Virus record (IMG/VR): IMGVR_UViG_3300009103_000050
Location: 1 to 47,142 of that record
DNA: 47,142 bases
Strand: one strand, 5' to 3'
From: a virus
Both the position numbers and the translations under genes were made by a program. Of the stretch, positions 35,487 through 47,142 are shown piece by piece. How positions within the stretch are numbered: position 1 is the first letter of the stretch; each line of letters opens with the position of its first letter. The notes under the pieces are model-generated. The model worked only from the letters and a program-made list of their open reading frames with translations. It ran no database searches and was not told where the DNA came from.

Positions 35487-35539
35487 AAATGCCAACAACT
35501 ATCAAGCACGACACAAACAAAAACAACGAGGAGGAAACG

Positions 35540-37087
35540 GTGAAATCGAAGAGCATGGAGAAAATCAATCCCGAGCTGGAGGGCTTTCGCGTCAAGCTGG
35601 GCGACATCGAGCAAGATCCAAACAACGCACGAGCGCACGACGAGAGAAACATAGAAGCGATCAAGCAAAGCCTAAAAGCCTTTGGCCAGCAAAAGCCTAT
35701 CGTTGTCTCGTCAACTGGTCATGCCGTCGCTGGTAATGGGACACTAGCCGCCGCCAAGCTTCTCGGCTGGAAAGAAATCGCCGCCATAACATTCGACTCA
35801 GAATCAAAAGCCCACGAGGCCGGTTATGCCATCGCAGACAATCGCACCGCCGAGCTTGCGACGTGGAACGAGGAAATCTTAGCGACCACCGTTGGCGAGC
35901 TTCCCTCTGATCTCCGTATCGGGTGGGACGATCTAGAGGTCAACGCTTTCCGTGATGCGCTAGAGCTTGGCGACGTCCACGACGAAGACGAAAACGAAAA
36001 AGAACTTTCTTTGGCGACCTCTCTTGGTGGAGGTGCCGCCCCAGATATAATCAACGAAGAGCTTGACGAAATAGAAAACATAAAACCTAAAACCATGAAA
36101 CCGGGCGACGTCGAAAAGATCGGACTGGCCACGCTGGTTTGTGGTGATTGCGTCGAAGAGCTTTCGAAGATGGAAGACAACTCGGTTGATTCCATTGTTT
36201 GCGATCCACCATACGGGATCGGTCTCATGAACTCCGCTTGGGATTGTGACGTCCCCGGTGACAAGTGGGCAACCGAGTGCTTGCGTGTTCTCAAGCCCGG
36301 TGGTCACCTCATCGCCTTTGGTGCAACTAGAACCATTCACCGTTTAGCGACGTCGGTGGAGGATGCAGGGTTTGAGATTCGCGATCTGGTCTCGTGGCTG
36401 CAATGGCAAGGCTTTCCAAAATCGATGGCGGTGGAGTCAATGCCCGGCTGGGGAACCGCTCTTAAACCCTCACAAGAACCAGCGGTGATGGCCCGAAAAC
36501 CCCTCGACGGAACCGTAGCGGAGAACGTGATCAAGTGGGGCGTGGGTGGTTTGAACATCGATGGGTGCCGACTGGAAAACGGTGACCCCGCGTGGCCAGT
36601 TGGATCCGATTGCCTCCCGACAGTAAAGACTGGCAACGGCAGCCCCTTCGACGCTGTCGGGCCATTCGAGTCGGTATCAAACGATCAAGGCAGGTGGCCA
36701 GCGAACATCTACGCTTGCCCCAAGCCATCCAGGGGCGAGCGAGAAGAGGGATGCGAAGATCTAAACGGGGTCAAGGGTTCCGACGCTGTAAGGCGAAAAG
36801 AAAACAGTGCCGGAATGAATAGCCCGCGAGCCGGTGCCGGTCGCACTGCCTCGACGGTGAAAAACTTTCACCCGACGGTAAAACCAGTGAGGCTGATGAG
36901 GTGGCTGGTTCGGCTGGTGACTCCACCAGGTGGGGTTGTCCTCGACACCTTCGTTGGTTCCGGCACAACCAACGTCGCTGCGATAGCTGAAAATATAAAA
37001 TCAATTGGGATTGAGCGTGATCCCTCTTTTGCCGGGATCGCAAAAGCTCGGATCACAAAAGCCCACCGGCTGTCAAGTGATCTCTAA
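35540..37087 (+). CDS. ParB-like nuclease domain fused to DNA methyltransferase
   Basis: 515 residues from GTG 35540, chosen because GAGGAGG lies 5-6 bp upstream; the longer frame from ATG 35489 has no Shine-Dalgarno and covers the promoter region. Residues about 10-110 are ParB/Srx-like (V-K-L-G-D-I-E-Q-D-P-N-N-A-R, A-V-A-G-N-G-T-L-A-A-A). The methyltransferase has motif IV D-P-P-Y-G at 222-226 and motif I F-V-G-S-G-T-T at 471-477, so a beta-type N6-adenine or N4-cytosine enzyme. It would modify phage DNA against host restriction. Target unknown. First gene of the rightward block. Confidence 0.92.
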   Translation: MKSKSMEKINPELEGFRVKLGDIEQDPNNARAHDERNIEAIKQSLKAFGQQKPIVVSSTGHAVAGNGTLAAAKLLGWKEIAAITFDSESKAHEAGYAIADNRTAELATWNEEILATTVGELPSDLRIGWDDLEVNAFRDALELGDVHDEDENEKELSLATSLGGGAAPDIINEELDEIENIKPKTMKPGDVEKIGLATLVCGDCVEELSKMEDNSVDSIVCDPPYGIGLMNSAWDCDVPGDKWATECLRVLKPGGHLIAFGATRTIHRLATSVEDAGFEIRDLVSWLQWQGFPKSMAVESMPGWGTALKPSQEPAVMARKPLDGTVAENVIKWGVGGLNIDGCRLENGDPAWPVGSDCLPTVKTGNGSPFDAVGPFESVSNDQGRWPANIYACPKPSRGEREEGCEDLNGVKGSDAVRRKENSAGMNSPRAGAGRTASTVKNFHPTVKPVRLMRWLVRLVTPPGGVVLDTFVGSGTTNVAAIAENIKSIGIERDPSFAGIAKARITKAHRLSSDL

Positions 37088-37206
37088 CACCCTTTTTGTG
37101 ATCTCTTCTGCTCTAGCTCAGCAAGAAAAAAACACGCGACCCGCGCAAGGTGTTGAAAAATAAAGAAAAGAAAAAGTGATCTCTAACAGATCACAAAGTG
37201 ATCTCT
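37077..37206. promoter_or_regulatory. Cluster of four GTGATCTCT sites
   Basis: Exact copies lie at 37077-37085, 37098-37106, 37176-37184 and 37198-37206, paired at 21 and 22 bp. The two outer pairs include AAGTGATCTCTAACA. The last pair forms AGATCAC-AAA-GTGATCT (37189-37205), a perfect inverted repeat. Two helical turns between sites suggests a protein binding on one DNA face. The cluster starts over the methyltransferase stop codon and ends at the terminator. Possible roles: operator, origin iterons or partition-like site. Confidence 0.65.
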
Positions 37207-37210
37207 ATTT

Positions 37211-37254
37211 CCCCCTTGGTTCCGGCAACTTAGCCGATCCAGGGGGTTTTTCTT
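37211..37254 (+). terminator. Intrinsic terminator after the methyltransferase gene
   Basis: CCCCCTTGG pairs with CCAGGGGG (one bulged T), an inner GGC/GCC pair closes the loop AACTTA, and TTTTTCTTT follows. It would isolate the methyltransferase transcript from the next promoter at 37364. Confidence 0.8.
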
Positions 37255-37283
37255 TGGCCCAACTGGAAACCAGATCTCAGATC

Positions 37284-37309
37284 TCAACCCAGATCTACAA
37301 AAAAAGATC
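37284..37309. repeat. 26-bp regulatory repeat, copy 1
   Basis: Identical over 26 bases to 39151-39176; core CCCAGATCTACAAAAAAAG. It starts exactly 80 bp upstream of the -35 box at 37364, the same distance as copy 2 to its promoter. Contains two GATC sequences around an A-run. Likely binds a regulator shared by both promoters. Confidence 0.8.
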
Positions 37310-37363
37310 ACCAATAAAAACGGCAGTTTACCAGTGGATCCCAGCCTGTACAGAGCAAAGGGC

Positions 37364-37392
37364 TTGCAACGTACAAACAAATGCTTTACAAT
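37364..37392 (+). promoter_or_regulatory. Sigma-70-like promoter P1
   Basis: TTGCAA (37364-37369), 17-bp spacer, TACAAT (37387-37392). The transcript leader starts near TGAAAGAACA, also found after the second promoter, and carries a CGGAGCAC ribosome-binding segment before ATG 37422. Confidence 0.75.
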
Positions 37393-37421
37393 GATGAAAG
37401 AACAACAAAACGGAGCACAAA

Positions 37422-37748
37422 ATGAAAACACGAAAAACCAAAAGAGCAAGCGTCTTAGATATGATTGAACTCGTAAACCGTCGAAATCTTGAGTCGACTT
37501 GTTCACCCGATGTCCGACAGGGCTGGAATTCCCTTCTTGAAGATATGCTGCATGCCACCGGAAACTATAGTGGTTTTGGGTACTATTCAAATGATGATCT
37601 GCCTTCAACCGTCCAGCCCGGTGTCCGCGTAGAAACAACCGACATGGGGCGCGGGGTTGCCGACGATATGAACGAGCGGTTTCGCGATTGCGACGATACG
37701 CGCCGATTTTACTATGTGCCCGTAGGACTGGCCCAGCCCAAATTCTAA
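37422..37748 (+). CDS. Hypothetical protein, first gene of promoter P1 operon
   Basis: 108 residues, not assigned to a function. The pattern N-Y-S-G-F-G-Y-Y near residue 48, D-D-L-P, P-G-V-R and a final D-D-T-R-R-F-Y-Y-V-P-V occurs in small phage and plasmid proteins of unknown role. It opens the operon driven by 37364-37392 and its start has the shared CGGAG leader. Placed next to the ArdC-like gene, it may be an early accessory or counter-defence protein; this is only inference by location. Confidence 0.7.
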   Translation: MKTRKTKRASVLDMIELVNRRNLESTCSPDVRQGWNSLLEDMLHATGNYSGFGYYSNDDLPSTVQPGVRVETTDMGRGVADDMNERFRDCDDTRRFYYVPVGLAQPKF

Positions 37749-37815
37749 CCACCACCACCGCCCCCCCCCCACCGGGGGGGGCCCCCACCACCACCAAAAA
37801 AAAACGGAGAACACC
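37749..37815 (+). repeat. Intergenic hairpin-CCACC-RBS cassette, copy 1
   Basis: C10 (37761-37770), ACC, G8 (37774-37781), then CCCCCACCACCACC, an A-run and ACGGAGAACACC before ATG 37816. Preceded by ACCACCACC as well. The C/G runs form a stem of at least 8 bp. Same parts and order as at 38683, 39711 and 40591. Confidence 0.85.
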
Positions 37816-38682
37816 ATGACCAAGAAATTCAACAAAGAGCAAAAAGCGGAATGGAAAGCAAAGAAAGCAGCCGAGACAAAAGATCTCTTGGCTAAAATTG
37901 AGGCTGGAGTTGAGCGAATCACCACGGGCGCTGAGTGGAAAGCTTTTTTGGACTTCAAAAGCAAATTTCATAACTACTCTTTCAACAACCAATGCTTGAT
38001 CTACCTGCACAATCCAAACGCTTCCCACGTTGCCGGGTACAAAGCTTGGCAGAAACTCGGTCGACAAGTGAAAAAAGGTGAGAAGGGAATTCGCATCCTT
38101 GCCCCCGCCCCCATGAAGATTGAGGACAAAAAGACCGGAGAAGAAAAATTAGTTTACTGTCGATTCAAAGCGGTTTCCGTTTTCGACATCTCTCAAACCG
38201 AAGGCGACGATCTGCCAAGTGGTAGCTTTGCCAGTGCTGTCGAAGGCGATTCAGTTTCCGCCACTGTTCGATCTGGGCTAGTTGACTTCGCAAACGATCT
38301 TGGCTTCTCCGTCGAGTTCAACTCTGAGATGGACGAGCACCCCGGCGCAAATGGGGTGTGTAAATTCAAAGCGAAGGAAATTGAAATTGCCAACGGGCTC
38401 GACGCTGACCACGAGATCAAGACCTTGATCCACGAAATCGGCCACGCTGTTATGCACTCCGGCTATAACAAGGAATTTGGAGAACTGCACAGCATTGCAA
38501 GCGCTGAAGTTGAAGCGGAAAGCGTTGCTTTTTGTGTCTCCAATATCATCGGACTAGATACCGGCTGTTATTCGTTCGGCTACGTTGCCGGGTGGAGCGG
38601 TGGTGACGTCGAGAAGATCCGCGAGTCGGGCGACAGAATCACCAAGTGCGTCGCTCAAATCGCTTCAGCGATTGCAGCCTAG
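37816..38682 (+). CDS. ArdC-like anti-restriction protein with metallopeptidase domain
   Basis: 288 residues. The N-terminal part (about 20-130) matches the ArdC ssDNA-binding domain: F-H-N-Y-S-F-N-N-Q-C-L-I, V-A-G-Y-K-A-W-Q-K-L-G-R-Q-V-K-K-G-E-K-G-I and F-K-A-V-S-V-F-D-I-S-Q-T. The C-terminal part has the zinc motif H-E-I-G-H at 206-210 and A-E-V-E-A-E-S-V-A at about 230-238, which supplies the third ligand. ArdC proteins of plasmids protect incoming DNA against restriction. Here it sits close to the methyltransferase. Length matches the family (about 290-300). Confidence 0.92.
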   Translation: MTKKFNKEQKAEWKAKKAAETKDLLAKIEAGVERITTGAEWKAFLDFKSKFHNYSFNNQCLIYLHNPNASHVAGYKAWQKLGRQVKKGEKGIRILAPAPMKIEDKKTGEEKLVYCRFKAVSVFDISQTEGDDLPSGSFASAVEGDSVSATVRSGLVDFANDLGFSVEFNSEMDEHPGANGVCKFKAKEIEIANGLDADHEIKTLIHEIGHAVMHSGYNKEFGELHSIASAEVEAESVAFCVSNIIGLDTGCYSFGYVAGWSGGDVEKIRESGDRITKCVAQIASAIAA

Positions 38683-38747
38683 TCAAGCAACCCGCCCCCC
38701 CCACGGGGGGGGCACCACCCCCACCACAAACCAAAATGGAGAACATC
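38683..38747 (+). repeat. Intergenic hairpin-CCACC-RBS cassette, copy 2
   Basis: C8 (38695-38702), AC, G8 (38705-38712), then CACCACCCCCACCAC, an A-rich run and ATGGAGAACATC before ATG 38748. The CGGAG of the other copies reads TGGAG here, which creates an in-frame ATG at 38736; I prefer 38748 by comparison with the other cassettes. Confidence 0.85.
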
Positions 38748-39089
38748 ATGACCGAACGATACAAACGAAAAAACGAAAACAGCTTTGATCCCGAAATCGT
38801 CGACTCTGTGCAACTGAAACCAATGCGCCCCGGTGGTCCCCGCGCTGAATATTTGATCTGCCACCTTGGATATGACCACCACCTCAAAACAGACAAGTTC
38901 GTTTCATGTGTGCGCTATGGTGCCGACGTGGGGATCGCCCATGTCGGGATTTTCGGGTGGCAGCACGGTGAATACTTCCCTTGTCTCGACGCTGCTCGAA
39001 GACATCACCATCGCAGGATCTCAGAGTATACCGGTGATCGATTCTTTCACTATTTCATCAGGGGGTACCATCGCTGTCGGCTGCTTTGA
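38748..39089 (+). CDS. Hypothetical His-rich protein
   Basis: 113 residues, not recognised. It has P-G-G-P-R-A-E-Y-L-I near residue 27, C-H-L-G-Y-D-H-H, and a C-terminal half with clustered histidines (A-R-R-H-H-H-R-R near residue 85) and several aromatics, which could bind a metal. It follows the ArdC-like gene through a hairpin cassette and is the last gene before the second promoter region. Function unknown. Confidence 0.7.
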   Translation: MTERYKRKNENSFDPEIVDSVQLKPMRPGGPRAEYLICHLGYDHHLKTDKFVSCVRYGADVGIAHVGIFGWQHGEYFPCLDAARRHHHRRISEYTGDRFFHYFIRGYHRCRLL

Positions 39090-39124
39090 ACCGGGGACCA
39101 TGGCGCTACAGAGATCTCTTTCGG

Positions 39125-39150
39125 CCGGTTCCGGACTGGTTCCGGACCGG
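39125..39150 (+). other. Stem-loop before second promoter module
   Basis: CCGG-(T)-TCCGGA pairs with TCCGGACCGG around the loop CTGGT, a 10-bp stem with one bulged T. It contains GGTTCCGGAC twice, 11 bp apart. The 26-bp regulatory repeat begins at the next base. No T-run follows, so it is either a weak terminator for the operon upstream or a protein site. Confidence 0.55.
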
Positions 39151-39176
39151 TCAACCCAGATCTACAAAAAAAGATC
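39151..39176. repeat. 26-bp regulatory repeat, copy 2
   Basis: Identical to 37284-37309. It starts 80 bp upstream of the -35 box at 39231. In this copy the following base makes a perfect AGATCT...AGATCT pair around the A-run. Sequence between repeat and promoter differs from copy 1, so the conservation of repeat and spacing is not just recent duplication of a long segment. Confidence 0.8.
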
Positions 39177-39230
39177 TCTCTACCTTTCAGCAACTTACAT
39201 GCAAAATACAAGAAAAGCGCAAACAAGGGG

Positions 39231-39260
39231 TAGACAAGGGGCAGCCGCCCGATCTACAAT
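39231..39260 (+). promoter_or_regulatory. Sigma-70-like promoter P2
   Basis: TAGACA (39231-39236), 18-bp spacer, TACAAT (39255-39260). Followed by AGTGAAAGAACA, matching the leader of promoter P1, and by ACGGAGCACCAA before ATG 39300. Confidence 0.7.
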
Positions 39261-39299
39261 AGTGAAAGAACAGATCACCCCAAAAAAACGGAGCACCAA

Positions 39300-39710
39300 A
39301 TGTCATCTTTCCAAGTAAGCAATCAGTCGATCAGCCGCATCGCCGAATTTATCGTTTCCGAAATCGGTACAGGTTGCGCGAAATGCACAGCGATGGATCT
39401 ATATCAAATGAATCTTGACGCTATTCGTTCGCGCTACGGAAAGAGCGAGCACGAATGTGAGTTTGAATTTATCCCGGGATCTCTCGATGACGGATCAAAT
39501 GATTCGGATCTTGCGTACCAGTCTGAAGCTCAGCTTCACCAAAATATTCGCTGCTATCTATATCAGTGCATGGAGGGCGATGTCCCCGAGAGCAAATTTT
39601 TCCTATTCGTTGAAAAATTGGGGCGAGATCTCAGAGAAAAGACGATCAAAAATTTCAATATTCACGAAAGCGAATTTGAGCATGCTTGTAACAACTCCAA
39701 ATGGGAGTAG
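39300..39710 (+). CDS. Hypothetical protein, first gene of promoter P2 operon
   Basis: 136 residues, not recognised. It has an acidic middle (P-G-S-L-D-D-G-S-N-D-S-D) and several cysteines (G-C-A-K-C near residue 25, C-Y-L-Y-Q-C near residue 85), with helical segments elsewhere. The first cysteine pair C-x2-C may bind zinc. It starts the operon behind the promoter at 39231 and ends just before the third hairpin cassette. Confidence 0.65.
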   Translation: MSSFQVSNQSISRIAEFIVSEIGTGCAKCTAMDLYQMNLDAIRSRYGKSEHECEFEFIPGSLDDGSNDSDLAYQSEAQLHQNIRCYLYQCMEGDVPESKFFLFVEKLGRDLREKTIKNFNIHESEFEHACNNSKWE

Positions 39711-39771
39711 ACACACCCGCCCCCCCCACGGGGGGGGCACATCCACCACCACCACCAAAACGGAGCACCAA
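39711..39771 (+). repeat. Intergenic hairpin-CCACC-RBS cassette, copy 3
   Basis: C8 (39720-39727), AC, G8 (39730-39737), then CACATCCACCACCACCACC, AAAA and CGGAGCACCAA before ATG 39772. The stop codon of the preceding gene lies at its left edge, so the hairpin starts within about 10 bases of termination. Confidence 0.85.
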
Positions 39772-40590
39772 ATGAACCTGCTAGACTATACCCCCACGGT
39801 TTTCTATTTCTGCCACTCTGCAAAGAATGAATTCAGCTATAACATCGATGCCGCTTCCAGCGCTCTAAGGGGCACTGGGAACGCACCTTTCCAATGTACC
39901 CTATGCGGTGCACGGTTCAAAACTGGAATCGTGGCAGAAAGCATCTCAGGCGGCGACGCGATCACGCTCGGTATGGATTGCGCTGAAACCATGGAGTTGG
40001 CCCAGCTTGTAGCCGATTGCACTGGTGAGATTGAAAAATTGCGAGCAGATGCGGCAAGAGAAAAAACAGAGAACCGGGTAAAGATTTGGGCCATGGGTCG
40101 GCCGGAGATGTTCGAATTTTTGGAGTCGAAAAAAGACAAGAATAATTTCTTCGAGAGCCTTTATTCCGCGCTCTATCAATGGGGATCTCTCACCGGCGGA
40201 CAAATGGAGGCTCTTGATCGGGCAATGAAAAGAGAAAAAGAAGAAGAGAGCGAAAACAAAATTGCCGCGCCAAGTGGGCGAACAACTTTCACGGGTGTTG
40301 TAGTCGGCATCAAGCCCCCGCCCGCCTATGCCGAGTTCCCTACCTGGAAAGCTATTATCAAAGTGAAATCCGGCAATGATGTTTGGCTGACTATGGGGGG
40401 CATTGGAAAGCAACTAGACGATCTTGATCGTGGTGACACCGTGACGATGACAGCAACTCTCAGGGCCGGTCGGGATCCCTCATTCGTTTTCTATAGCCGC
40501 CCCTCCAAAGTTTCGATCACGAAGGGGCCAAATGCCACTGACGAGCTTTGCTCAGGTGCGCCGCGTAGCAACTCGCTGGCAATGCTGTAA
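39772..40590 (+). CDS. Zinc-motif phage protein of unknown function
   Basis: 272 residues. The first third has F-Q-C-T-L-C-G-A-R-F near residue 40 and L-G-M-D-C-A near residue 65, a likely zinc site of the type seen in phage and plasmid proteins that also carry Y-F-C-H-S near the start. A charged helical middle follows, then a C-terminal beta domain from about 165 (T-T-F-T-G-V-V-V-G-I-K, D-D-L-D-R-G-D-T-V-T-M-T-A-T-L and F-Y-S-R-P-S-K) that looks OB-like and might bind nucleic acid. Function unknown. ATG 39772 follows the shared ribosome-binding cassette. Confidence 0.75.
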   Translation: MNLLDYTPTVFYFCHSAKNEFSYNIDAASSALRGTGNAPFQCTLCGARFKTGIVAESISGGDAITLGMDCAETMELAQLVADCTGEIEKLRADAAREKTENRVKIWAMGRPEMFEFLESKKDKNNFFESLYSALYQWGSLTGGQMEALDRAMKREKEEESENKIAAPSGRTTFTGVVVGIKPPPAYAEFPTWKAIIKVKSGNDVWLTMGGIGKQLDDLDRGDTVTMTATLRAGRDPSFVFYSRPSKVSITKGPNATDELCSGAPRSNSLAML

Positions 40591-40663
40591 AGAAAAACAC
40601 CCGCCCCCCCCCCGTGGGGGGGGGCACATCCACCACCACCAAACAAAAAAAACGGAGAACAAA
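40591..40663 (+). repeat. Intergenic hairpin-CCACC-RBS cassette, copy 4
   Basis: C10 (40604-40613), GT, G9 (40616-40624), then CACATCCACCACCACC, an A-rich run and ACGGAGAACAAA before ATG 40664. The longest of the four stems. The next junction (41531-41560) keeps the A-run and CGGAGAAC but has lost, or never had, the hairpin. Confidence 0.85.
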
Positions 40664-41530
40664 ATGAAAAAGTATCTACTTTACTGGAGTGCAAGAGAAA
40701 TCCTTGCCAACCCTTCAACGCTAAGTGACGAGCTTTCTAAGGGCGAAAACGGGCACTACCTTGCCGGGGCACTGCCAAAACTTTGCAGCCCAGCGACGGC
40801 ACTTGAGAGAGCCAGACGCAAAAGGCCAGCAAAGGGTTTTATGTATCGCAGCGTTGGGCGATGCAGCGACGGCAACACGCATGTTGCCTTTACCGAGGAG
40901 ACCACCGATCCGAATGCGGTAGAGGTTGCCGACAAGTGGAAGGGGGACGCGATCTTCACGGCGTCGTCGACAAAAGATGGAAAAATAAAATTCTCACACG
41001 TTCCACCGATGTTTCACGGCGAGGCTGAAAAGCTTGAGCGAGCATATAGCAAAGAGCTTGGTTTTCTAACTCAACCCGACATCGGAAACCTATTCACCAA
41101 AATGATTTTGAATCGCTGGAAGGGCATTCGAGTGAAGGCTGGAAGCGCTGTGTTTATTGTGCCGGGCGAACAAAGAACCATCGACGAGATCCAGTGGATC
41201 AATGCGTCACTGAAGGCAAGCGGTGTTGAGTGCCGGTTCGTCAAAACTGAGGCCGGAGACACCGAAGAGCAGCGAGAAGAAATCCGATTAGGGCTACTAG
41301 AGGAAATAGAACACCTGAAAAAGCACGCATCGAAAATGCTCGATGAAGCAAAGAGCGGAAAAGAGATCCGATTTCAAACTCTACAAAAGCGAATGAAAGA
41401 AGCAACTGAATCGATGACGAAAGCACAGCTGTTCGGTGATCTTTTGGAAAACAAAATGGGAGAGATCAAAACAGCGGTTGATCAATATAAAGATTCAATC
41501 ATGGAAGTCATGAACGAACTCGCAAGCTAG
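40664..41530 (+). CDS. Unknown partner protein of the AAA+/vWA pair
   Basis: 288 residues. The start M-K-K-Y-L-L-Y-W-S, L-P-K-L-C near residue 42 and F-M-Y-R-S-V-G near residue 63 form a beta-rich first half with D-K-W-K-G-D near residue 95; the second half has W-K-G-I-R-V-K near 155 and a long coiled-coil C-terminus with E-E-I-E-H-L-K-K-H-A. I recall this type as a companion of phage MoxR/vWA pairs, with no known activity. It lies directly before the AAA+ gene and shares its ribosome-binding leader type. Confidence 0.75.
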   Translation: MKKYLLYWSAREILANPSTLSDELSKGENGHYLAGALPKLCSPATALERARRKRPAKGFMYRSVGRCSDGNTHVAFTEETTDPNAVEVADKWKGDAIFTASSTKDGKIKFSHVPPMFHGEAEKLERAYSKELGFLTQPDIGNLFTKMILNRWKGIRVKAGSAVFIVPGEQRTIDEIQWINASLKASGVECRFVKTEAGDTEEQREEIRLGLLEEIEHLKKHASKMLDEAKSGKEIRFQTLQKRMKEATESMTKAQLFGDLLENKMGEIKTAVDQYKDSIMEVMNELAS

Positions 41531-41560
41531 CGTCGACGACAAAAAAAAACGGAGAACAAA
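41531..41560 (+). promoter_or_regulatory. Leader of the AAA+ gene, cassette without hairpin
   Basis: CGTCGACGAC, nine A residues and CGGAGAAC precede ATG 41561. The ribosome-binding part is the same as in the four hairpin cassettes, but C/G tracts and CCACC repeats are absent. Confidence 0.7.
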
Positions 41561-42778
41561 ATGAACAAGCAAAACGCAATACCAACAAAAAGAAGTCTAC
41601 CAAAAGCCATCGAGAGAATTGCAAAGCTCGAAAGCGAAATGAACAAAAAGTTTTTAGAGCGTGACAGGTTTAGCGCTCGGCTGATAGATGCCCTAATCAT
41701 GGGGCAGCATATTCTTGCCGTTGGACCACCCGGCACAAGCAAAAGCGATCAGTGTCTCGCCGTGGCCGATGCGATCAAAGAGCTTGACGAAGAGAAAAGC
41801 AGAAAGGGAATCGCAGAGCACAAAAGTATCAAGGCGTGGAAATATCAGTTCCAACCCTTTACGACGCTGTCGGAGGTTTTCGGTGCGTTCTCCATCGTCG
41901 GAATGAAAGAGGATCGGTATAGCCGTTACAGCGCAAACCGATTGCCCGATTGCAAGCTTGCAGTCATGGAAGAGTTTTTCAAGTCGAACTCCGCAACCCT
42001 TAATGGGTTACTTGGGGCTCTTAATGAACGCCACTGGTTTGATGAGGGTGTGATCAAAAAGATGCCCCTGAGAACAGCGGTTCTAAACTCAAACCGTTTA
42101 CCCTCTGACAGCGACGAACTGGAAGCGGTGGAGGATCGAATCTGTCTCAGGGTTTTTGTCGGCGACGTGAAGAGCGAAGAAAATTTTGACGCGATAATGT
42201 GTGCCGACTCCAAAGAAGAAAACAATCGCGGTTTAGATTGCGAGGTTTTCGAGGCTGACCTTGACGTGATTCGAAAGTCGGCGCTCCGCTTGGAGTTTAG
42301 CGAAAAGGCAACCGAGTCACGTGCTCAGATTCGGAGAGAAATAAACAGCGCTGGCATTTATGTCTCGGTGCGCCGGTGGAAAATGGCGAGCCGGATCGCT
42401 AAGTGTTTTGCCGTCCGAACTGGATCTAGCGTCGTCGAGCCGCGCCACCTTTCCGTCTTTGAGGATTGCTTGTGGAATCGCATTGAAGAGATGGAACAAG
42501 TGCAGGCTATTGTCTCTCGCCTTGCGTCACCGTGGAAAGAAGACATCAACGATCTGAACGCTCTTCTTGCCGAGGCATTCAACGAACTTCGCGAGATTGA
42601 GCGTGGCCAGTGCGACGCCAGCAACGTCGTCCGTGTGGCGAAAAAAGTGCAAATGGCACAAGCAACCGCGAAGGAAATCGACGCACCAGAGGCGGGGCCA
42701 GAAGTTGAAAAGGTTCTTCAGTTTGCCGCAACTTGTCGGGCGCAAGCGATGGCGATGGTAGAGCGGAGCATGGCATGA
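41561..42778 (+). CDS. MoxR/RavA-type AAA+ ATPase
   Basis: 405 residues. Walker A G-P-P-G-T-S-K-S at 55-62, Walker B L-A-V-M-E-E at 133-138 (Glu where the usual Asp stands), then S-A-T-L-N-G-L-L-G-A-L-N-E-R, the segment typical of MoxR/RavA ATPases, and T-A-V-L-N-S-N-R-L-P for sensor 1. A helical lid follows and the last 150 residues are helical. Such ATPases act with a vWA-domain protein to remodel or insert cofactors in targets; here that gene follows with a 4-bp overlap. Expected to form hexamers. Confidence 0.9.
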   Translation: MNKQNAIPTKRSLPKAIERIAKLESEMNKKFLERDRFSARLIDALIMGQHILAVGPPGTSKSDQCLAVADAIKELDEEKSRKGIAEHKSIKAWKYQFQPFTTLSEVFGAFSIVGMKEDRYSRYSANRLPDCKLAVMEEFFKSNSATLNGLLGALNERHWFDEGVIKKMPLRTAVLNSNRLPSDSDELEAVEDRICLRVFVGDVKSEENFDAIMCADSKEENNRGLDCEVFEADLDVIRKSALRLEFSEKATESRAQIRREINSAGIYVSVRRWKMASRIAKCFAVRTGSSVVEPRHLSVFEDCLWNRIEEMEQVQAIVSRLASPWKEDINDLNALLAEAFNELREIERGQCDASNVVRVAKKVQMAQATAKEIDAPEAGPEVEKVLQFAATCRAQAMAMVERSMA

Positions 42779-44106
42779 AAAATAAAAATGCTTTCACACA
42801 CTCGACGTCAACAAAGCTTCAGCTTCGTCGAAGAGAAGATGATCCAAGGTTGATCTTTGCCAGAGACCAGTCTTCAAAAGTTGTTCCTGGGTGGAGCGGA
42901 TTTGTCGAGGATACCTTTGGTGCCATGCTCGACGGTGCGGATTCTCCGACGCTGGAAGATCCGAATCGGCTGGCGCTCAACCTGGGATCACTCGCAAGAG
43001 AAAACCCCAATTGGGGCAAGCTGCAAAAGAGCGCAAGTTTCCACCCCGCAATTGCGGCGAGGGCAACGGCTGGGATCTCAGAGATCGTTTATGGTTTGAT
43101 GTCTGACGAAATAGAAAACGAAACAAGCGGAGATGAGGACGACGGCAGCGACGGCAGCGACGGCAGCGACGGCAGCGACGACGAAAAGAACCTTGAGCGA
43201 ATGGCCACGCTGTACAGCGAAACGAAGGAGCTTCTTGACGATGTGCAAGAACAGGCGAAGCGGGTGCAGGGTCTAAGAGCGATTGGTCTCGTGCCGGACA
43301 TCTCCGACGGGGAAGATCCGATTGATGAGAGGATGATAGACGCGATGTCAGCAATCAAGGATCTTGACGAGTTTATTGACCAGCTTGGCGCGGGGGGAAA
43401 GCCGAAGGGTGACCACGCTGGACGCGGGATCTCCAACGTGGTTGGAGTGCACAAGGGTGGAGATGTTGAGAGGTTGCTACCATCCGAGCTTGCCCAGCTT
43501 TGCGATGACGATCTTGATTTTGAACTCATGAGCCGAATCGTTGACGACGACGCTTGGATTTACAAGGTGGAGGACAAGGAATCATCTGCTGGCGACTTCG
43601 TTCTCATGGTCGACAGAAGTGGCAGCATGAAAACACCCCTTGAATTTTGTGACGGTGACAGAATGCAGTGGGCTAGATCTGTGGCTCTTGCAACTCTGAA
43701 GCGCTGCGTTGACTCTGGAAGATCTGTTTTGCTTGTCTTATTTGCTGGGGCCGGAGACATTGAAAGCATCAGGGTGGACAGCCGGGAAGATCTGAGGGGC
43801 GCGGTTTCGATGGTGCTTGGAAGGGCACGGGGAGGCACGGACGTTTCAGGTGCGCTCATTGCGGCATCAGGGATCGTGAACAACGACAGCAAGAAAGAAA
43901 ACGATTTGGTTCTTGTCACGGATGGCTTGCTTCCCCCATTCAGCCGGGCCGAATGGATGTCAGGGAAATTAACTTGCATCACCCTGACGGGCGAAATAGA
44001 TACAAGAGACGCCACGGCAGAAAAAAACTTCGATGAAATATTTTACTTGAAAGATTCTGACTTGACGTCGGAGTCAGTTAGAAAGGTGACTAAAAATGTC
44101 AGATAA
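42775..44106 (+). CDS. vWA-domain protein (MoxR/RavA partner)
   Basis: 443 residues from ATG 42775. The C-terminal vWA domain (about 272-443) carries a full MIDAS: D-R-S-G-S-M at 280-285, G-G-T-D at 353-356 and T-D-G at 382-384. The first 270 residues are helical with an acidic low-complexity patch holding four Asp-Gly-Ser repeats near residue 123. The gene overlaps the AAA+ gene (ATGA) and so is coupled to it. By analogy to RavA-ViaA and CobS-CobT it recruits the target. No target is evident. Confidence 0.92.
   Translation: MKNKNAFTHSTSTKLQLRRREDDPRLIFARDQSSKVVPGWSGFVEDTFGAMLDGADSPTLEDPNRLALNLGSLARENPNWGKLQKSASFHPAIAARATAGISEIVYGLMSDEIENETSGDEDDGSDGSDGSDGSDDEKNLERMATLYSETKELLDDVQEQAKRVQGLRAIGLVPDISDGEDPIDERMIDAMSAIKDLDEFIDQLGAGGKPKGDHAGRGISNVVGVHKGGDVERLLPSELAQLCDDDLDFELMSRIVDDDAWIYKVEDKESSAGDFVLMVDRSGSMKTPLEFCDGDRMQWARSVALATLKRCVDSGRSVLLVLFAGAGDIESIRVDSREDLRGAVSMVLGRARGGTDVSGALIAASGIVNNDSKKENDLVLVTDGLLPPFSRAEWMSGKLTCITLTGEIDTRDATAEKNFDEIFYLKDSDLTSESVRKVTKNVR
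43141..43176 (+). repeat. Four tandem 9-bp repeats in the vWA gene
   Basis: GACGGCAGC occurs four times without change and codes for Asp-Gly-Ser. Perfect identity of units suggests recent slippage; copy-number change would keep the frame. Confidence 0.9.
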
Positions 44107-44230
44107 AAAAAAGAAAAACAAAACGAAAGAAATCATCTCACTCATGATTGAGGTCGAGAAGAAAAGCCCAGCATTGCTAATGACAGAATTTGTGGAGCTT
44201 TACTTGAAGGGAAAAAGAAATGAACGATGA
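44096..44230 (+). CDS. 44-residue small protein
   Basis: A short frame starting within the last codons of the vWA gene (11-bp overlap) and ending 11 bp inside the next gene. It begins with a Lys-run (K-K-K-K-N-K-T-K) and then an amphipathic helix (E-I-I-S-L-M-I-E-V-E and L-L-M-T-E-F-V-E-L-Y-L). AAGGTG stands upstream of the ATG. The double overlap and the fact that it fills the 113-bp gap support it. Function unknown. Confidence 0.6.
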   Translation: MSDKKKKNKTKEIISLMIEVEKKSPALLMTEFVELYLKGKRNER

Positions 44231-44624
44231 AACTATTTTTCCACCGGGTCTGTGCGCGGATTCGGTTCTTGTCGGTCCACTTGATTTTGAGTTGACTGAT
44301 TGCGACGTCGAGCAGTTTATGTCTGATCTGAGAATGCTCAACCCGCATTGTGATTTCATCGATGGAACATTCAAGCCGGTTGACGCAACCCTACTTCACG
44401 GTTTCGTGACTGTCCCGATAGAGGCGAGTGACATTTTGAATACAACTTTTTGGCTTCTGAAGCATGTCGACGTCGACGGGGAGCGATGCGGGAAACTTGC
44501 AACATACAATTCTGAGTCGAAAGAACTTCAACTTTTGGTCCCTATCCCACCGGAAATTTGCCGAGCGGCTATCATTCTACAAGCCATGGAAGAAGATGTT
44601 GCAAGAAGCCAAGAGGAGGTATAA
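44220..44624 (+). CDS. Hypothetical protein
   Basis: 134 residues, not recognised. Acidic, beta-rich first half (L-V-G-P-L-D-F-E-L-T-D-C-D-V-E-Q-F) and F-W-L-L-K-H-V near residue 80, with a helical end (P-P-E-I-C-R-A-A-I-I-L-Q-A-M-E-E-D-V). The AAGGGA site precedes the start. Located between the vWA gene and the small helix-turn-helix gene, so its role cannot be inferred with confidence. Confidence 0.7.
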   Translation: MNDETIFPPGLCADSVLVGPLDFELTDCDVEQFMSDLRMLNPHCDFIDGTFKPVDATLLHGFVTVPIEASDILNTTFWLLKHVDVDGERCGKLATYNSESKELQLLVPIPPEICRAAIILQAMEEDVARSQEEV

Positions 44625-44628
44625 GGTC

Positions 44629-44895
44629 ATGACGAGCAACGAACAAAAAACAACCAAGAAAAAGGTGGATAAAATGTCTCAAGCCCAGAAGGAACAAGTG
44701 CTATCGATCAAGGATGTCACAAAATACATCGACGTCGGCGCGAGAGTTATTTATGCCGCGTTGCAGAGTGGCGATCTTGCCGGAAGAAACCTCGGCGGGT
44801 CCAAGGGTTGGGTCACGACGAGAACAGCGGTATTGGACTGGATTGAGTCAGGGAATATTTCAGACGTTGACTCGTCGACTGAAGTCGGAGAGTAG
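44629..44895 (+). CDS. Excisionase/MerR-type helix-turn-helix protein
   Basis: 88 residues from ATG 44629, with GAGGAGGT 8 bp upstream; longer frames upstream overlap the preceding gene and are rejected. After a Lys-rich start the motif L-S-I-K-D-V-T-K-Y-I-D-V, R-V-I-Y-A-A-L-Q-S-G-D-L-A and W-V-T-T-R-T-A-V-L-D-W-I is the winged helix of HTH_17/excisionase-like DNA binders. With no integrase present it is more likely a transcription regulator of the phage. Possible targets include the GTGATCTCT cluster, which is inference only. Confidence 0.8.
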   Translation: MTSNEQKTTKKKVDKMSQAQKEQVLSIKDVTKYIDVGARVIYAALQSGDLAGRNLGGSKGWVTTRTAVLDWIESGNISDVDSSTEVGE

Positions 44896-44899
44896 GCCA

Positions 44900-45898
44900 A
44901 TGGAGCGCAAGGCGAGAGGAACCTATTACGGTGGCCACCAGGGAGCAGCCGTGGTTGGGGAGCACCCTTACATGACGCTGGGGGACATTTTCGCAACTAT
45001 GGTGCACGGCAACCGCGAAGATCTATCTGACAACCCGGTGATCCGACGTGGCTTGATTTGCGAACCTGGACTAATCGACTGGCTGGAAAAAGACAGAAGG
45101 GCAAACCTAAAGAGAGATGTTCACGTCATCGACGAACAAGAAATTTTTGCCGGGACACTCGACGCGGTTGAGTTGAAAAGTGGAATCGTTCACGATGTAA
45201 CCGTCACAACGACAAGATCGAAAGCTTGGCATGGCGGGGTGGCGAAGTATAAGCAATTGCAACTTCAGTGGTATATGGGAATCGTCGAGAACTGCAAGCA
45301 CGTTATCACCAGAAACGGCATGCACTTTGAAGAGTGGCCTTGGCCGGTGGCGGATCACTCGATACTAACTGTTTTTTATGCGGACACCGGGGACATCGAA
45401 CAAATTCCGGTGTGGAAAGACGAAGGCATAATTTCGCGAATGAGATCCGAGTGCTTGAAGTTTCACAGAGAACACGTCGAGAAAAAGATACCACCGTGCG
45501 ACGTCGGAGACAGCGCAATAAAAATCATCTATCCAAAAGACGACGGTGACACACTCGAAAACCCAGACAAAAGTTTCATCGATGCCGCTTTGCAATTTTC
45601 CCAGGCGAGAGAGATGGCAAAAGAGTGGACCGAATCCAAAAAGAGGTGTGCGACTATTCTCAGAAACCAACTTAAAACCAAGTCGCGTGCGACATGGAAT
45701 GGAGAAAACGCGGGGAGCGTGACTTGGAAAACATCCAAGGGCAAAACAGTTGTTGATCACGAGGCGATGGGGAAAGATCTATGTGAAAAATTAGATCTAG
45801 GATACGCCGAACTCTGCGAGCGATACGAAGTCGAAAAGCCCGGCCCGCGTGTGCTGAGAGTAACAATGAAAAAAAACAAAACGGAGGAAAAGAAATGA
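44900..45898 (+). CDS. YqaJ-like recombination exonuclease, catalytic lysine not conserved
   Basis: 332 residues from ATG 44900. The pattern N-P-V-I-R-R-G-L-I-C-E-P-G-L-I near residue 45, G-T-L-D-A-V at 85-90 and K-Y-K-Q-L-Q-L-Q-W-Y-M-G near 116 fits YqaJ/lambda-exonuclease nucleases, which resect duplex ends for RecT. Where the family has E/D-x-K the sequence reads D99-V-T101, so the expected lysine is a threonine; K93 close by does not have the normal spacing. It may use another residue or be inactive. Neighbouring genes end with RecT. Confidence 0.75.
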   Translation: MERKARGTYYGGHQGAAVVGEHPYMTLGDIFATMVHGNREDLSDNPVIRRGLICEPGLIDWLEKDRRANLKRDVHVIDEQEIFAGTLDAVELKSGIVHDVTVTTTRSKAWHGGVAKYKQLQLQWYMGIVENCKHVITRNGMHFEEWPWPVADHSILTVFYADTGDIEQIPVWKDEGIISRMRSECLKFHREHVEKKIPPCDVGDSAIKIIYPKDDGDTLENPDKSFIDAALQFSQAREMAKEWTESKKRCATILRNQLKTKSRATWNGENAGSVTWKTSKGKTVVDHEAMGKDLCEKLDLGYAELCERYEVEKPGPRVLRVTMKKNKTEEKK

Positions 45899-46365
45899 GC
45901 AAAACACAACCAAAAAAGCCAACGGTAAAAAGCTTGGCGTATTCAATACTAAAAGAGTACCAAGCTTGCCTGCTTGAATCTGACGACGCTGACGTGAAAA
46001 GATCCACTCTTGTTAGGATTCTGAGCGAGCACCTCAAAGAGTTCGACGAGTCGATGAGGTACAGGGCAATGAGAAAGGCGTCCGGCCTTGTTAGCGAGGG
46101 CCAGCTTTTGGATCACCTGAAAGAGGAGATGTCTAAAATCAAGCCGAAAAAAGAGAGGGCATTTAGAGAGGTCTACGAAATCACAAAAGACCGAACCGGA
46201 AAGCGAATGCTGGTTCGTGCACGCTTTGACGGCAGCCCTTTTTTTGAGGTGGGCGACTTCGTAAAAATAAGCGTAGAAGTTCTTTCTGACGATGATGGAA
46301 ACCAGCAACCTGCGATTGTCCTACGTCGACAGGACAAAGAAGATCGAGAGGTGAAAAATGTCTAG
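45895..46365 (+). CDS. Hypothetical protein between nuclease and RecT
   Basis: 156 residues, not recognised. The N-terminal 85 residues are helical and charged (S-L-A-Y-S-I-L-K-E-Y, S-T-L-V-R-I-L-S-E-H-L); the rest forms a small beta domain (R-A-F-R-E-V-Y-E-I-T, F-F-E-V-G-D-F-V-K-I-S-V-E-V-L). Start ATG overlaps the nuclease stop and has GGAGG upstream; the end overlaps RecT by 8 bp, so all three are coupled. A recombination accessory or nuclease-RecT linker role is plausible by context. Confidence 0.75.
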   Translation: MSKTQPKKPTVKSLAYSILKEYQACLLESDDADVKRSTLVRILSEHLKEFDESMRYRAMRKASGLVSEGQLLDHLKEEMSKIKPKKERAFREVYEITKDRTGKRMLVRARFDGSPFFEVGDFVKISVEVLSDDDGNQQPAIVLRRQDKEDREVKNV

Positions 46366-47142
46366 CACATCGATGATAAAAGTGGGCAGCGACGGAATTC
46401 AACTTCAAGACTTCAACAGCATGCAAAGATTCTGTTCCGCTGCCGTCGAGAGTGGAATGTTTCAAGGGGTAAGAGATGTAAGCCAGGCAATCATGAAAGT
46501 TGAATATGGTCTCGAGTTGGGCATCAAACCAATCACGGCAATGAGAAATATTTATTATTTCCAAAATGCGTTTTGCCTGTCGGCCAGCCTCGTTAACGCT
46601 CTGATCAAGAGGGCCGGGTACCGATTCTCAACGGTGGAGAGAACCGACGAACGCTGCCTTTTAAGATTCGAGTCTCCAGACGGGAAACCACTTGGGGATT
46701 CTGAGTTCACCTGGAAAGACGCCATCAAGAAGAACCTAACGACGAAAAAAAACTGGAGAGAACACCCAAAGAATATGCTCTTCGCTCGCTCGCTAACCCA
46801 GGGTGCGAACATGTATTGCGCCGAAGTTTTCCTTGGCCCAGTGCTGACACCCGAGGAACTACTTGAAAGCAACTCGGCATCCAACGAGATGCCACCCGAA
46901 GCGCCACCGCTAGAGATCCTAGTGAGCGAGGGGGAGACGATCAAGGTGGCAAACGAGCAGCCCAGCGTTGACGTTGTCGACGTCGAGCAAGACCGGGAAG
47001 AAAGTTCAAGTTCAAGTCCAAGTCCAATCGTCGAAGTTCTTGAAAGGTCAATAGAGAAAAAGACCAAAGAAAAATCAAACGGTGAGACAAAGAAAAATGG
47101 GAGCGATAGCAGGTCGGCAGCTAGCATTATGAAGAATTTCAT
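46358..47142 (+). CDS. RecT-like ssDNA-annealing recombinase, 5' part (gene crosses the contig join)
   Basis: Joined with 1-318 over the circular join this gene encodes 327 residues. The N-terminal half matches a phage RecT-type annealing family: an A-I-M-K-V-E-Y-G-L-E-L-G-I-K-P block, then L-S-A-S-L-V-N-A-L-I-K, then N-M-L-F-A-R-S-L-T-Q-G-A-N with the following Y-C-A-E-V-F-L-G-P-V and P-E-E-L. Such proteins anneal single strands made by a partner exonuclease; here the nuclease-like gene lies two genes upstream. A GAGGTGA Shine-Dalgarno precedes the ATG, which overlaps the previous gene by 8 bp. The region after about residue 190 is Ser/Glu/Lys-rich and probably disordered. The family call rests on motif recall and is not confirmed by a search. 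Confidence 0.8.
   Translation, partial: MSSTSMIKVGSDGIQLQDFNSMQRFCSAAVESGMFQGVRDVSQAIMKVEYGLELGIKPITAMRNIYYFQNAFCLSASLVNALIKRAGYRFSTVERTDERCLLRFESPDGKPLGDSEFTWKDAIKKNLTTKKNWREHPKNMLFARSLTQGANMYCAEVFLGPVLTPEELLESNSASNEMPPEAPPLEILVSEGETIKVANEQPSVDVVDVEQDREESSSSSPSPIVEVLERSIEKKTKEKSNGETKKNGSDSRSAASIMKNF
47024..47142. repeat. Right copy of 119-bp terminal overlap
   Basis: This is the exact duplicate of bases 1-119 at the right end. It should be counted once when the genome is closed. It codes for part of the hydrophilic C-terminal region of the RecT-like protein. Confidence 0.95.

Follow-up and report, generated by a model that had tools for sequence, protein, structure and literature searches.

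The virus record IMGVR_UViG_3300009103_000050 of IMG/VR, analysed here as a whole entry of 47,142 bases (the window), carries siphophage structural genes on the minus strand and, at four junctions between plus-strand genes, a recurring cassette of a poly-C/poly-G hairpin, a G-free C/A tract and a GGAG ribosome-binding site ahead of ATG. The question raised by this locus is whether the cassettes act in the messenger RNA, act as sites in the DNA, or are boundaries that were copied from junction to junction. The reading favoured here, with a probability of about 0.45, is that they may be intercistronic RNA punctuation, in which the hairpin would block 3'-5' decay of the upstream cistron and an unstructured leader would serve the next one.

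Hairpins and start modules

Four junctions with hairpins and the same order of parts were named in the original prediction; the coordinates match, and the four C8-10/G8-9 palindromes are the sole palindromes with at least seven C and seven G in the whole window:

37760-37782, plus strand, cassette 1 hairpin, G-C10-ACC-G8-C, 11 nt past the stop codon at 37746-37748
38694-38713, plus strand, cassette 2 hairpin, G-C8-AC-G8-C, 11 nt past the stop codon at 38680-38682
39719-39738, plus strand, cassette 3 hairpin, G-C8-AC-G8-C, 8 nt past the stop codon at 39708-39710
40603-40625, plus strand, cassette 4 hairpin, G-C10-GT-G9-C, 12 nt past the stop codon at 40588-40590

At all four junctions 8-12 nt separate the stop codon from the stem and 33-38 nt separate the stem from the following ATG, with identical order and orientation of the parts. 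Dinucleotide shuffles (100) gave an expectation of 0 for C8N2-4G8, and no all-G:C stem of at least 8 pairs was present in 60 Markov-1 random windows. Perfect Watson-Crick stems of at least 9 pairs with short loops occur at seven loci of the window, four of them being the cassettes. The RNA fold of each cassette reaches -21.4 to -26.1 kcal/mol (z -1.6 to -3.4 against shuffles of equal composition), and all four hairpins are present in the centroid structures. Aligned over about 70 nt, the four copies have a mean column identity of 80%; cassette 1 additionally carries CCACCACCACC 5' of the stem. The C-runs differ in length among the copies (C8, C8, C10, C10) and the arms are C8/G8, C10/G8 or C10/G9, while pairing always amounts to 9-10 G:C pairs, or 8 with a tetraloop. 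This variation of arm length with constant pairing suits a stem better than it suits a protein site of fixed length.

The stretch ahead of GGAG is free of G for 24-29 bases in each cassette; 0.4% of the window positions are preceded by at least 21 G-free bases. GGAG and ATG are exactly 6 nt apart in all four cassettes. The leaders, followed by three start modules without a hairpin, are:

37783-37818, plus strand, cassette 1, G-free C/A tract, A9, CGGAG (37805-37809) and ATG of the ArdC-like gene
38714-38750, plus strand, cassette 2, C/A tract, TGGAG (38737-38741) and ATG of gene 38748-39089
39739-39774, plus strand, cassette 3, CACATCCACCACCACCACC tract, CGGAG (39761-39765) and ATG of gene 39772-40590
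40626-40666, plus strand, cassette 4, CACATCCACCACCACC tract, A8, CGGAG (40653-40657) and ATG of gene 40664-41530
37404-37424, plus strand, A-rich CGGAG start module without hairpin, gene 37422-37748
39282-39302, plus strand, A-rich CGGAG start module without hairpin, gene 39300-39710
41540-41563, plus strand, A9-CGGAG start module without hairpin, MoxR-like ATPase gene 41561-42778

The CGGAG site that had been ascribed to every cassette is thus present in cassettes 1, 3 and 4 and replaced by TGGAG in cassette 2, and the CCACC-repeat tract likewise fails in cassette 2, which has CACCACCCCCACCAC and no uninterrupted CCACC repeat. The A-rich ACGGAGMAC-N3-ATG module is found at seven starts against 0.39 expected. 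Its occurrence at the hairpin-free starts 37422, 39300 and 41561 was not part of the original prediction; the A-rich CGGAG part is a separate module, wider in distribution than the hairpin cassette.

Predicted operons and gene context

Two plus-strand consensus promoters were found between 35000 and 47142, directly ahead of 37422 and 39300:

37364-37392, plus strand, predicted sigma-70-type promoter of operon 1, TTGCAA-17-TACAAT, 9/12 in a consensus scan
39231-39260, plus strand, predicted promoter of operon 2, TAGACA-18-TACAAT, 10/12, the best consensus match of the region

Both are pattern matches only, the total of consensus matches not exceeding that of shuffles, and they are credible because they are paired with repeats and gene starts. 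A perfect 26-nt direct repeat, TCAACCCAGATCTACAAAAAAAGATC, lies at 37284-37309 and 39151-39176, 55 bp upstream of each predicted promoter, and is possibly an activator or repressor site. An 18-nt near-repeat from the -10 box onward is common to both, and TACAATRRTGAAAGAACA at the operon 1 promoter is shared with operon 2. The region is accordingly predicted to comprise two operons, 37422-39089 and 39300 onward. With promoters and shared repeats ahead of 37422 and 39300, the hairpins therefore stand only at internal junctions of the predicted operons, namely at four of the five clear ones and at no first gene.

Two 22-nt arms at 39033-39054 and 39258-39279, 91% complementary and 203 nt apart, would let the 5' leader that follows the operon 2 promoter base-pair with the terminal part of gene 38748-39089. 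The calculated fold of a transcript reading through both arms (291 nt, -88.6 kcal/mol) contains this long stem, which is a candidate processing site or read-through sensor.

The genes of the window are arranged as follows:

minus strand, structural genes: terminase, portal, HK97-type head protein and tape measure
35.5-46 kb, plus strand, block of DNA methyltransferase, ArdC-like antirestriction/metalloprotease, MoxR-like ATPase, vWA protein and RecE-like exonuclease
37816-38682, plus strand, ArdC-like gene, Pfam ArdcN E=2.6e-14
41561-42778, plus strand, MoxR-like ATPase gene, Pfam bpMoxR E=8.3e-30

The best matches of the window proteins are scattered over phyla with identities below 60%. The genes flanking the four hairpin junctions match different families or none, in agreement with the earlier statement that they are unrelated, and the repeat is therefore confined to the junctions. 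Within 35489-46500, beside a gene for a fusion of a ParB-like protein and a DNA methyltransferase, GATC is 2.5-fold over-represented (103 against 41 expected). Three copies of AAGTGATCTCTAACA, one of them 80% alike, are located at 37075-37210.

Proposed RNA punctuation and its alternatives

According to the punctuation reading, two early-type operons would be transcribed and a very stable all-G:C hairpin would form at each cassette junction, just clear of the mRNA covered by a ribosome that halts at the preceding stop codon. There it would stall 3'-5' exonucleases, and a cut of the mRNA in the exposed C/A-rich tract would leave the upstream cistron shielded at its 3' end. Further on, the G-free C/A tract and the A-run would stay mostly unpaired, so that a strong GGAG, set at a constant distance from ATG, would let the next gene be initiated independently. 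Transcription as two operons, cleavage in the G-free C/A tract as a natural cleavage zone, exonuclease blocking and action of the hairpin as RNA rather than DNA are the steps that we infer. Three features fit the reading: the hairpin lies just past the point where a ribosome terminates, its stem stays perfect although the run lengths vary, and first genes lack it. A precedent comes from E. coli (PMC5927463), where U-less stable hairpins within operons mark the places at which stabilised upstream segments end and are assumed to obstruct 3'-5' exonucleases. The hairpins of the window are likewise stable, lack a U tract and lie between genes whose co-transcription is predicted, and among the roles proposed originally that of mRNA stabiliser fits best.

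Other functions assigned to the hairpin fared less well. No intrinsic terminator was called on the plus strand at any cassette, the stem being followed by a C/A and not a T tract, which confirms that these are not normal terminators; a terminator-like score on the minus strand was obtained for cassette 4 only. Insulation of the ribosome-binding site by the hairpin found no support in thermodynamics: forbidding the hairpin pairs shifts the opening energy of the Shine-Dalgarno (SD) site and start by at most 0.2 kcal/mol. The calculation treats equilibrium and is compatible with a kinetic effect of the hairpin or with an obstacle to ribosomes that scan the mRNA. Among starts that have the A-rich module but no hairpin, some are equally or more open at SD and start. 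The proposed slippage switch would have no reading frame or promoter spacer to act on, though run lengths differ among the copies. A promoter with an operator in its spacer was rejected, the four palindromes of the window scoring 3-5/12 against a background mode of 6. Searching 37000-42000 with the covariance models of Rfam 15 gave no match with E up to 1.

Several points weigh against the decay barrier. The computed SD accessibility is almost unaffected by the hairpin, the internal junction 41531-41560 has none, and the C/A tract is more alike among the copies than an unstructured spacer needs. The stem is also a near-perfect DNA palindrome, and C6/G6 palindromes resemble DNA sites in other phages. 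Covariation would need relatives, and even then arms of pure C and pure G would hide compensatory changes. Conservation for function and recent copying between junctions would look the same in one genome, and selection is not separable from copying because no relatives with the cassette were found.

The main rival, a lesser but real possibility, is a DNA-level site at which a phage regulator or repressor would bind the C/G palindrome within operons as a roadblock or silencer. A near-perfect dyad 33-38 bp ahead of the starts would suit such a protein, and the cores of cassettes 2 and 3, when reverse-complemented, are identical to that of cassette 4, as an orientation-free site predicts. Precedents include the DNA binding preferred by Pope et al. 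for the extended start-associated sequences (ESAS) of phages, the C6N3-5G6 dyads that fill -35/-10 spacers in actinophage-like contigs, the stoperators of cluster A, and the start-linked inverted repeats of cluster EG and cluster K phages. However, the palindromes of the window lie outside promoters (3-5/12) and both predicted promoters are without a palindrome, the outer length varies between 20 and 23 bp, and the strictly oriented C/A tract is left unexplained. That tract, C-rich and poor in G, is part of what an attenuator would use, the hairpin pausing or partly terminating RNA polymerase in a U-less or Rho-dependent manner and so grading expression down the operons. We regard attenuation as unlikely: the high stability of the hairpin, the C-rich tract without G behind it and the occurrence of two such units in series per predicted operon, at internal junctions, speak for it, but the coding strand has no T tract, the C-rich tract would make a strong RNA:DNA hybrid, and with about 65 nt the untranslated gaps offer Rho little room to load.

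Much the same low likelihood is given to a recombination linker, in which the junctions would be recently copied shared boundaries that let unrelated genes swap in, the hairpin having no regulatory role. The similarity of about 70 nt is limited to junctions around genes of different or no families, the promoter regions are duplicated too, and repeat-mediated gene gain and loss has been described for cluster O phages (PMC4351075). Against this, the placement between stop codon and SD is fixed and no copy has lost its perfect stem, which suggests that expression is under selection, and no relative with gene swapping was found. An assembly or homopolymer sequencing artefact is highly improbable. 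Homopolymer run lengths are error-prone and the cassette region is covered by one assembly only, but four separate loci with unique flanks share order, orientation and SD spacing, and run-length errors could shift counts by a base or two without creating the element. Rather doubtful, finally, is a reading by which the cassettes would be copies of an expression module dedicated to the phage, hairpin and CCACC tract being recognised jointly by a phage or host factor and the internal cistrons of the two operons processed and translated independently, as a punctuation system in its own right unlike SAS/ESAS of cluster K.

Look-alikes and known elements

No other cassette copies were found in the scanned viral and genome contigs, an absence that is weak evidence. 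The pattern C7N2-5G7 with CACCACC within 25 bases gave two matches in viral contigs, both unrelated, and its 30-base version gave 114 stretches in genome contigs, mostly contig ends rich in GC homopolymers, besides repeats of planctomycete contigs; a hairpin with an 18-base A/C tract gave six matches, all spurious. For the ArdC-like gene only distant homologues were found. The MoxR-like protein and the proteins of 272 and 288 amino acids have no homologue in the viral contigs, the 272-residue protein none in the genome contigs, and the 288-residue protein none in GenBank phages. A portal search yielded one 4.2-kb fragment (L017), 99.8% identical, which ends at 35650, 2 kb short of the cassettes.

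A looser hairpin-GGAG-ATG pattern produced at least 120 matches in viral contigs and exposed a class of promoter-spacer palindromes. In GC-rich viral contigs a C6N3-5G6 dyad stands between TTGACA and TAnnnT, with up to 8 C/G palindromes in 10 kb, and among look-alike palindromes with a downstream start 32 of 140 score 9-11/12 (background 1.3%). Those of L044, L049, L091, L098, L100 and L126 resemble the cassettes in having a poly-C/poly-G dyad upstream of GGAG-ATG several times per genome; they differ in that the dyad fills the TTGACA/TAnnnT spacer, whereas the cassettes are without hexamers. Promoters of the TTGACA-CCCCCCATTTTGGGGGG-TAGATT type, followed by a leader and GGAG-ATG, occur in actinophage-like contigs with a GC fraction of about 0.69; the spacer palindromes were observed in these six and in L031, L032, L034, L052, L064, L079, L093 and L097, and look like a genome-wide operator-in-spacer regulon. 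By megablast, L049 and L126 had no match among GenBank phages.

The cassettes' design of hairpin, G-free leader and SD also occurs, as a single copy, in the unrelated contig L038 (position 4475 of the reverse complement), where a C7-T-G8 hairpin is followed by CTTATACAACAACAACAAAGGAGATGACAATG. L139, L202 and L222, two of them from the planctomycete metagenome-assembled genome ARS90, contain AACTCCCCCCCTTGGGGGGGCTGGGGGGGGGAACTACACCACC-like elements in C/A-rich DNA that are distinct from the element of the window; in L139 and L202 these elements recur at distances of 130-180 bp.

For processing by RNase III a duplex of at least some 20 bp is typical, and the sites of the T7 type between early genes have stems of about two helical turns. 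They too are hairpins at successive junctions of phage operons, but the stems of the window have only 9-10 pairs and fall short of the approximately 20 bp of an RNase III site. Stoperators of cluster A phages are sites of 13 bp without symmetry to which the phage repressor binds; the C/G core here is a dyad. The mRNA-decay hairpins of malE-malF and puf, and those of the E. coli survey (PMC5927463), are likewise stable, U-less and placed within an operon after the protected gene; they differ in not being described there as a repeated sequence module coupled to one leader, and for the cassettes the blocking of decay is a prediction.

Repeats linked to gene starts have been described for several groups of phages, with their role still open (PMC3203893, PMC11373665). 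In cluster K mycobacteriophages 11-19 copies of the start-associated sequence (SAS), a conserved 13-bp ribosome-site sequence of consensus GGGATAGGAGCCC, precede non-structural genes, about half of them with the upstream inverted repeat ESAS (PMC3203893). ESAS are imperfect 17-bp inverted repeats with a spacer of mostly 4-13 bp and arms that do not support RNA pairing (PMC3203893), and that of Adephagia contains a SigA-like promoter with -35/-10 hexamers 17-18 bp apart (PMC11373665). The layout in the window, one start module at seven genes and an upstream dyad at four, is SAS/ESAS-like: in both, a start module stands at many non-structural genes, a subset having an inverted repeat just upstream, in one orientation, with longer-than-usual gaps and at unrelated genes. 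The module of the window, ACGGAGMACNNNATG, occupies a similar place with another sequence and is not an SAS. Nor are the palindromes ESAS repeats, with perfect C8-10/G8-9 arms, a spacer of 2-3 bases, no SigA-like hexamers (best 3-5/12) and a C/A tract. Cluster O phages carry 17-bp dyads partly in coding sequence (PMC4351075), and in cluster EG Microbacterium phages starts are preceded, at 14-22 bp, by 18-bp inverted repeats (PMC7302621), which differ from the cassettes in sequence (GATCAACCNNGGTTGATC), in lying nearer the start codon and in that no C/A tract is described.

The original assertion that no phage element of this design was known went too far, because an arrangement of the same kind is seen in SAS/ESAS (PMC3203893) and in the repeats of cluster EG (PMC7302621). 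The cassettes are a cleaner case than most start-linked repeats, with a perfect all-G:C stem, no promoter or T tract, a G-free leader and fixed SD spacing, and three starts with the ribosome-site module but no hairpin provide natural controls within these operons. Simple reporter constructs could therefore tell the RNA-decay hypothesis from the DNA-site one, and the module could find use as a compact part between cistrons. The cassette, in a composition found nowhere else here, is a known kind of arrangement with precedents in SAS/ESAS and in the repeats of cluster EG.

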